From Symbiodinium natans (Eukaryota > Sar > Dinophyceae > Suessiales > Symbiodiniaceae), in NCBI GenBank assembly GCA_905221605.1, contig CAJNDS010002211.1:410989-474988 (forward strand): a stretch of DNA of 64,000 nt, given 5' to 3'. Below the pieces are notes generated by a model. It was not told where the DNA came from and searched no databases. It saw only the letters and a program-made list of their open reading frames with translations. The position numbers were made by a program, and so were the translations under genes. Below, piece after piece: positions 49,701 through 63,846 of this stretch; the first letter of the stretch is position 1; each line of letters begins with the position of its first letter.

Positions 49701-52700
49701 AGCTTCTGCTTTCGGAGCTTGCAACAGAAGAAGTAAATTCGACGCTCGGACGAGCGGCGGGAAGGATGCGCGCTTCGTCTCCAGGTAGGCCTTGCGGCGA
49801 AGGGCCGAGAAGCTCCAGGTTCGAACTTTTGACATCAGGGGCTTTGTTAAGGGGCTACATAGAGTCTGCAGATGTCTTATGCAGGCCTCCCTTGCCCGAA
49901 ACTTGCACAAACTAAAGATGCGAGGGCCTTTCAGGGTGGATGAACTAAAGTAAACTGAGTATGGTGCCCAGATTATGGTAACAGAATACTGCGAGGGGAT
50001 ACCCGAGGCTATTTCATGCAATGCTGAAACTGACAAAGCCGAACAACCCTTGAAGCTGACCCCGGAACACTCATTGTCATGCCCATGTTTATACGAGAGA
50101 CACTACGCAGGGTGCCCGATGGTGCCGTGCCCACCTCTAGACTCTTCTGGATCTGATCGAGCTGGTCGTTTGCATTCTTCAATCCTGAGGATAGGGAGGG
50201 CTTCAGCATGCAAAATGCTTGGCTGCGTTTGGCTACAGTCTCAGTCATGGCGCACTTTCATGTTAAAATAGGAAGTTAGCTGATGTACGACCTTAACTTT
50301 ACATTCGTGAGTCACTTGCTACCTCTCTCACAGGAACCCATATAAAACGATATGTGAGCACGTTTCACGTGTCCACACCGTATAGTTGTAAACGGCAAAA
50401 AAGCCGCTGCAGCTTATTGTGTCTTATGCGGCTTTTTGTTTGTTGGAGACTCTAGAATCCATGCCGTGTCCCCTTCGATTTTGGCGGGTTTCTGTCTCCC
50501 AGCGGTTTCTGTCATCTCCAAGCCGCTATGATTCCTGGTTTTGTAGTTTGACGAGCGAAAATATCCTAAATCTTGAGATGTTTTCGACGGGAAACATTAA
50601 TTAGACTCATGAATCCTGCGGTACTATTGCGAGCTACAATGGGACAGTGATGGAAAGGTTACAATGATGAAGAAAAGACAACACCCGCGAATCCGATGCA
50701 GTAGGGTGTACCTGGATTCCTTACGACCACTACCACTAAATACAAGATCCGGCGCACTTCTCTGAGCCTTTGGACACGGTTTTGAGAAGGGGAGAACACT
50801 GCCATCCCATCCTGATCCCTGCGATTTCTAAACTCTGGGAGCAAATAGAGGGGGCACTGATGCAGATTAGGAAAGCTCAAAAGCACCCTTGTAAACAGGA
50901 TATCCGAGTAAATCTGCGGTGAAGCGGCTCGAGGTCTGCTGTAAAGATTTGTTTAACGGTCCCACAGCCCCGAGCCTACAACGGCACGCACGTTCTCTTT
51001 TTGTTCCTCGAAGGCACGTGGGAGTGAGTCTGAGAACCCACTGAGGTGAGCCATGCAAGGTATGAGGGCGGCGATGTAAACCAGCGAGACTCTGGACAAG
51101 CGCGACTTAACTCTCCAAGCCTAAACTTTAAGTGACCACCAACCCTCCAAGCCCCCTGTGGCCACCTCAGCGAGAGACCTATGACCGACTTAAGCCGGCA
51201 ATGGCTGCTCGCGCAGCCCATTTTGAGCTTCAGGAGATTTCCGGGCTGTTGGGGGATCACAGTTTTTGCGTAAACCGGAACTGCCCGGGCAGCAGACATA
51301 TTAGCACAATATCTTCATGTCTTCCTCGAAGACGCCGGAGTGCAGGGCTGCGCAGAGCCAATGCTGATCAAACTTCCTTCAACTTCATCATGCGAGACAT
51401 TCGAGTGTCAGTAGTACTCGGTAGTAGTGAGTATGAGGAGATGTCAGCATATGAAACATGCAAACCCCGCAAAGGCCCCATTTTCAATCCATCACGATCT
51501 TGGACACATCGTCTGAGACTCTATGGCGAGGGAGAATGACGATGACTGTTTATGAGCTGTTCTCCCCAATTTGATGTTGGCATGCTGGGTCACCGAGAGC
51601 ATGGAACTGGTGCCCTGCCCAGCCCCGCCCTCCGCGAACTGATGGAAGCGCTTCTGCTTTCTACGTTCAACAAATGCCTGCGGTGCGGCACCTCTGGGAC
51701 CCTTGGGACCCTTGGCAAAGATGCGGAGTAAGACCCAACTGCTCTCGAAACTGGTTCTCGTTCGAAGGCCTCCCGCTCGTGGAGTAAACTGTGGCATGCA
51801 GAATCCCCAGGTAGGAGACAAGGCTCTGTGCTCCAAAGGTTACGGAAGATCTCAGAAACATTCAGAAACCCTGATGTTTGTCTCCTGCCCGTAGGTTCAG
51901 CAACTGCAGCAACTGCAGCCCTAGCTGCACCTTTGCATATTTTGGCCAGTGATCACTTCGGCATGGCCCTGTGCTATGACCCTCACCAGTGTGAACATCT
52001 TTTTTGTGACACAATATGGCGCCAGGTAAAGTTTCATATCCCGTTGGCGTTGTTTTCTACTGAAAGCCTCAAGTGACCTTGGCCTTTTTGAATCCGAGCA
52101 AGTCGTGTTCTTGTAAAAGTCCAGAGGGATTAGATGTCAATCTGCATCGGCTATCACCAGGGGGTTCTGTGGGGGAGTCTGCTGCGCATCTTACGGCTCC
52201 AGGGTTGAGGTGGTTTGAGGGCTTCGTGCGCCAATTGTGCTGTGGTCAGAACGAGCTTCAAAGCGCGCGCTCAGAACAACATGTTGCCCTGCTCCTTCTC
52301 CTGCTTCCATGAGGCACTTCATCACACTCATGGGAATGAGGCAAGAAGACGGATGCAAGCGACCCGGTGGGAACTAGGTGTCGGTGTTCAGGGTTCTCTC
52401 GCATAGGATTACTGTCAGACTCTTTGCTTGTTCACATAAGGTACCTCGCACACAAAAATCATCATGTCATCCTCGCTGACTCACTTGCCTTGTAGATCAT
52501 CTCGAAGTACTGGTAGATGATGGTGACCTAGGTGTTGATTCCGAAGCCCAAACCAAACAACAACGTCAAGCCAAGAATCCGAAAACCCAAACTCGAAAAG
52601 TGATGCCCCCACACCGAGGCCCCAAAGGAGGACCACCGCTCTCCTGGCTCTCCTCCTCCACGCCCTGTCCACCTTGCCCGGCCACGCCACCCTTTGCACG

Positions 52701-63846: not shown

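Follow-up and report, generated by a model that had tools for sequence, protein, structure and literature searches.

A dynein heavy chain gene of Symbiodinium natans predicted to hold a Sec61 alpha gene and an aldolase gene on its own strand in two separate introns

In the dinoflagellate Symbiodinium natans, one long DNAH6-like dynein heavy chain gene most probably contains two further protein-coding genes, a complete Sec61 alpha gene and a class II fructose-bisphosphate aldolase gene, which are located on the host strand in separate introns and form a real, conserved locus. Based on spliced protein-to-DNA alignments and on gene models from related species, we give this reading a probability of about 0.88. 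Each inner gene lies wholly within one host intron and has a start and a stop of its own. The window analyzed is a stretch of 64,000 nucleotides, corresponding to bases 410989-474988 of the 580,411-base contig C1899 in the 759-Mb S. natans assembly. Positions are given in window coordinates unless a contig is named, and the features are collected in Table 1. A preliminary description of this DNA had placed a complete 34-exon Sec61 alpha gene in one dynein intron on the same strand, which the spliced alignments uphold; the aldolase gene was absent from that description.

Table 1. Predicted features of the dynein locus in the window, with strand and basis.
Feature	Position	Strand	Details
Sec61 alpha (nested gene 1)	52271..60950	-	34 exons, 476 aa; spliced alignment with P0002
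AG immediately 5' of the Sec61 ATG, with first coding exon (MSMQ)	60938..60952	-	sequence and model
Host dynein exons upstream of the Sec61 intron, in the window	62235..63846	-	10 exons, last 62260-62235; alignment to P0121
Host intron holding Sec61 alpha	50185..62234	-	12,050 bases
Host dynein exons from the Sec61 intron to the aldolase intron	45249..50184	-	19 exons, from the end of the linker to RLVVTPLTD and two bases of a K codon
Host intron holding aldolase	36913..45248	-	8,336 bases
Class II fructose-bisphosphate aldolase (nested gene 2)	38192..44830	-	at least 25 exons; PF01116, spliced models
Host dynein exons past the aldolase intron	29800..36912	-	22 modelled exons, CYMTLTG onward, the last truncated where the reference piece P0121 ends; alignment to P0121
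Next host dynein match	4637..4714	-	E=4.3e-9 in tblastn with P0125; preceded by a gap of about 25 kb

The Sec61 alpha model starts with an ATG at 60950, proceeds through exons from 60950-60938 to 52300-52274 and ends with a TGA at 52273-52271, with 1,284 bases of intron sequence before the ATG and 2,086 bases after the stop. The translation agrees at 476 of 476 residues with P0002, 'sec61a [Symbiodinium natans]', an entry of 476 aa that carries PF00344 and PF10559 and so has the SecY and plug domains of a Sec61 alpha protein. A profile search with PF00344, the first family search, gave no match, the short length of the exons being the probable reason. The nested copy is 95% identical to P0005 from Durusdinium trenchii, and the first residues of the two proteins, MSMQSGSFRF, are the same, suggesting that the inner gene has a conserved start of its own. 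Recent retroposition of Sec61 was rejected, given that 33 introns are present and that the spliced-leader core (18 bases) had no match in the window with up to three mismatches. The latter result bears on retroposed relics only and not on trans-splicing. Part of one Sec61 alpha exon (56286-56336) has an 86%-identical copy in the neighbouring intron at 56817-56867, 531 bases away.

The host exons on either side of the Sec61 gene join in frame in the spliced alignment to P0121. Exon 62260-62235 encodes FHIPNLLA plus one base and exon 50184-50135 opens with two bases, which confirms the split codon that had been read across this junction in the preliminary description. The intron between them has a GC donor and an AG acceptor. 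Altogether, 56 host dynein exons were modelled over 68450-29800, without a stop. With an aligner that permitted GC, GT and GA donors only, the 55 host introns had 27 GC, 15 GT and 13 GA donors, and the 33 Sec61 introns 21, 8 and 4, respectively. A G begins each of the 88 modelled exons that follow an acceptor in the two genes, a constraint that was not imposed. Besides two other long host introns, of 3,632 and 8,336 bases, the remaining modelled introns of host and Sec61 measure 43-950 bases.

The host was typed from its linker. A hand-assembled linker fragment of 91 aa had DNAH6 chains as its top three PDB matches, and the P0121 entry carries PF08393 and PF12774, covering the linker and AAA1 of an axonemal dynein heavy chain. 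By its best PDB linker match, the predicted host is a DNAH6-like axonemal dynein heavy chain gene. Its extent was estimated with P0125, a relative of 4,041 aa whose matches run collinear on the minus strand and which is 87% identical over the modelled part. Matches with E<1e-4 extend from 527.8 kb of the contig (window coordinate 116,780) to 276.1 kb. Weaker collinear matches reach out to 534.3 kb (E=0.61) and 211.6 kb (E=0.5), and the collinear matches over these 323 kb cover residues 3 to about 2,785. The host gene would thus span about 250 kb on firm matches and perhaps 323 kb. The last 240 residues of P0125 had no match on C1899, and exon-sized matches to the C-terminal part of the dynein were found on contig C438, where the gene perhaps continues.

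If this dynein copy were a dead relic, the nesting would be costless. In favour of this explanation are the existence of other dynein loci, among them one on contig C1790 that is 64% identical and without introns over the query, and the C-terminal residues without a match on C1899, although the gene may continue on C438. Against it, the 56 modelled exons are free of stops and retain 97% identity to P0121, and the similarity to P0125 over the modelled part speaks in the same direction. We therefore consider that there is a small chance that the host is a relic. Among 25 scored candidates, no near-identical un-nested copy of the host dynein was seen, the C1790 locus being the best other candidate. 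The dynein stretch at C1790:1309903-1319092 has open frames of up to 2,650 aa that are 56-70% identical to pieces of the query, beside intron-rich relatives.

An assembly mis-join, in which the Sec61 segment has been misplaced between two dynein pieces, could produce the same arrangement. The contig does contain two runs of N (2,500 and 100 bases in the 214 kb of C1899 examined), but both are outside the window, which has no N bases, and the reading frame and the splice sites are continuous. Among the repeats of at least 20 bases listed for 48000-64000, none was found at both edges of either the Sec61 segment or the intron. The strongest argument against a mis-join is that the same order is repeated in P0122, 'sec61a [Symbiodinium sp. 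KB8]', a gene model of 2,071 aa on a contig of 100,170 bases. This model follows the host dynein to residue 902 or thereabouts, has Sec61 alpha residues 6-468 at 955-1417, and returns to the host dynein from 1432. Its Sec61 part is 99.35% identical to that of S. natans, and Sec61 must lie between the dynein parts in KB8 for a gene predictor to have built it. The model lacks the first five and the last eight Sec61 residues and two short dynein exons, which fixes the nesting in KB8 to the interval and not to the exact intron. A corresponding locus in relatives, which the preliminary description had named as a check, is thus present within the same interval, and the models show Sec61 nesting in two members of Symbiodinium. 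For both KB8 and D. trenchii, the evidence consists of protein gene models and not of genomic DNA sequence.

The joining of the host exons across the nested site is seen in P0121 itself. This protein, from a JGI source, has 1,890 aa on a contig of only 6,520 bases and is accordingly intron-free. It shares 789 of 814 residues (97%) with the host model and passes over both nested sites with no insert, which suggests that a single message comprises the two dynein parts in this near relative. The second nest also recurs in D. trenchii, as described below. Based on these results, we regard an assembly error at the Sec61 nest as very unlikely, with hardly any chance of being the explanation.

The predicted aldolase gene starts with an ATG at 44830, and its last modelled exon reads in frame to a TGA at 38194-38192. 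The position of this end is uncertain. A wider look yielded the read-through stop as well as short alternatives, and a pattern search for a short last exon gave no match; we use the read-through TGA as the end, with a short further exon as the alternative. When joined, the candidate exons matched PF01116 with E=2.3e-10 and 40.9 bits (cut-off 25.5). The D. trenchii model P0242 (877 aa, with both PF01116 and PF12774) reads from dynein into aldolase and then into CYMTLTG, and its aldolase falls between the same two dynein residues as the junction in S. natans. This suggests that the aldolase nesting is shared by two genera, Symbiodinium and Durusdinium. Symbiodinium branches before Durusdinium in the Symbiodiniaceae. 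P0242 is located on a contig of 1,176,052 bases and the D. trenchii Sec61 protein P0005 on one of 1,179,496 bases.

Over 356 columns, the nested aldolases of S. natans and D. trenchii share 89.9% identity. A tree of 38 rows, made from 36 of 120 listed proteins (one divided into two rows) and the S. natans model, placed them in one group of five rows (support 82/88; bootstrap not settled), apart from another D. trenchii protein, P0241; three unnamed sequences also belong to this group. The KB8 model P0122 runs TPLTDKCYMTLTG past the aldolase site without an aldolase, so that the second nest is neither shown nor excluded in KB8. Three other proteins, P0290, P0292 and P0339 (JGI/LGN, contigs of about 2.2 kb), combine a PF01116 aldolase with a PF00121 triose-phosphate isomerase.

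The fused models could also be taken at face value, in which case a dynein-Sec61-dynein or a dynein-aldolase-dynein protein would be made. Both P0122 and P0242 have been deposited as single proteins, and phase 1 is shared by the splices that follow host exon 15 and precede Sec61 exon 2, so that a fusion would be in frame. However, Sec61 has an ATG and a TGA of its own and a length that agrees with its relatives, and P0121 contains neither insert. Moreover, P0122 misses dynein exons that are present in P0121, and the joining stretches in P0242 match, by eye, neither protein, both of which would be expected from mis-prediction. We assign only a very small chance to such fusion proteins. P0122 ('sec61a', 2,071 aa) and P0242 ('6-bisphosphate aldolase', 877 aa) rather appear to be annotation faults in which host and nested genes have been fused, and other models of this dynein may have been split or merged by nested genes.

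Long introns are common in the host gene, and most of those scored are without a clear gene. There are 11 gaps of more than 5 kb between mapped host exons in 214 kb, two of which hold the nested genes and one of which holds the retroelement-like peptides described below. Coding-like exons were scored in 12 long host stretches, including the Sec61 intron, with a score that had been trained on Sec61 and dynein exons and is circular for those exons. On the host strand, four of the 12 stretches stand out at 11.3 to 28.3 per kb, namely those with Sec61, the aldolase, a retroelement-like sequence and a dispersed repeat; the sums of the other eight do not exceed 4.13 per kb. A general rule that each long intron of the host contains a gene was tested on these stretches and rejected. 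The peptides of the retroelement-like stretch, at C1899:499204-510579 (window coordinates 88216-99591), are integrase- and RT-like by eye, and we take them to represent a copia-like retroelement; its opposite strand scored 9.7 per kb.

The 3,632-base host intron (C1899:475093-478724, window coordinates 64105-67736) contains a dispersed ORF repeat; among 24 scored candidates, 14 matches to it were spread over 13 contigs, two of the others being 98-100% identical. Two copies of another ORF (FIYGAANHDVLPPL...) were observed in different host introns, at about -34887 to -35746 and -64714 to -65550 in window coordinates on C1899, and a search of one copy against Pfam gave no match up to E 0.1. Elsewhere in the S. 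natans genome, further Sec61 alpha-like loci are found on C2333 and C639, with the clearer exon matches about 45-88% identical, and further aldolase loci on C707 (six tandem matches at 52%), C2059, C2016 and C1873. Thus, neither nested gene is the sole member of its family in the genome.

Two explanations of near-equal standing may account for the production of inner and outer mRNAs from one strand. According to the first, the RNA polymerase would run through the whole unidirectional dynein locus. On some of the RNAs, the inner gene would be cut out as an mRNA of its own, which would receive a spliced leader at the AG by the start codon and be polyadenylated within the intron, downstream of the stop; on other RNAs, the long intron would be removed to yield the dynein mRNA. 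The AG next to the Sec61 ATG is a possible trans-splice acceptor, and a spliced-leader release of the inner mRNA seems plausible. Unless splicing came first, a single RNA could hardly give rise to an intact host message as well as a polyadenylated mRNA of the inner gene, which favours alternative transcript fates. We tentatively adopt this model of read-through transcription, with the inner mRNA released from some transcripts and the long intron spliced from others, at slightly less than even odds.

According to the second explanation, the inner genes would use internal start sites of their own and the host transcript would merely pass through them. The start codons and complete reading frames of the inner genes are in line with this, as is the situation in human nested genes, where transcription interferes with the host and can result in intron retention, exonization and cryptic polyadenylation, as stated in the pertinent part of PMC3192792. 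We consider separate initiation a real possibility that itself falls short of even odds and a near-equal rival to the read-through model. A broader proposal appears rather doubtful as a whole, namely that one transcript of a few hundred kb gives dynein by cis-splicing and Sec61 alpha and aldolase by trans-splicing, and that the nesting has persisted since Symbiodinium and Durusdinium shared an ancestor because it ties inner expression to host transcription. Being conserved between two genera at least for the aldolase, the locus is suited for testing how inner and outer mRNAs are produced from one strand, and it indicates that intron-rich housekeeping genes nested on the strand of their host can remain so across genera.

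A general search of the open-licence literature for nested genes within introns found no paper, and a search of the same literature for gene nesting in dinoflagellates, judged by title, found no report beside that on Polarella. The word 'nested' is absent from the dinoflagellate genome papers PMC8045281, PMC11453091 and PMC11114475. Dinoflagellate genes are described, in the relevant part of PMC11453091, as organized in unidirectional clusters with spliced-leader trans-splicing. Like the members of such clusters, the S. natans genes are same-strand neighbours that are maybe co-transcribed, but the units are placed one inside another rather than head to tail. Polycistronic transcription of tandem arrays is itself disputed, with one title in the reference list of the same paper stating that the transcripts are not polycistronic. 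The locus also resembles the nested protein-coding genes of animals, as treated in part of PMC3192792, in that one gene is located in the intron of another and transcriptional interference is possible; it differs from them in that most donors are GC or GA and in the unidirectional clustering and spliced-leader trans-splicing described for dinoflagellate genes in PMC11453091.

The closest comparison is with Polarella glacialis, for which the section on nested genes in PMC7245778 reports 4,898 (8.4%) and 3,359 (6.5%) predicted genes nested in introns in two isolates, with up to 18 and 24 nested genes per host and with support from full-length transcripts. In one example from that section, 15 nested genes, including fucoxanthin chlorophyll a/c-binding and light-harvesting proteins, are distributed over three introns of an alanine-tRNA ligase gene. 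These frequencies weaken the statement in the preliminary description that an intron-rich housekeeping gene nested in the orientation of its host is unusual; the section itself states neither strand nor conservation between genera. As in Polarella, where the extreme cases have several genes per host, the S. natans genes are placed within introns of a multi-exon dinoflagellate gene. Unlike the Polarella example, they are two unrelated, intron-rich housekeeping genes on the strand of their host, with matching models in other species, and it is this combination in one giant host that is particular to the S. natans locus. Gene nesting in dinoflagellates is already known, and the S. natans locus is a well-supported, conserved example of it.
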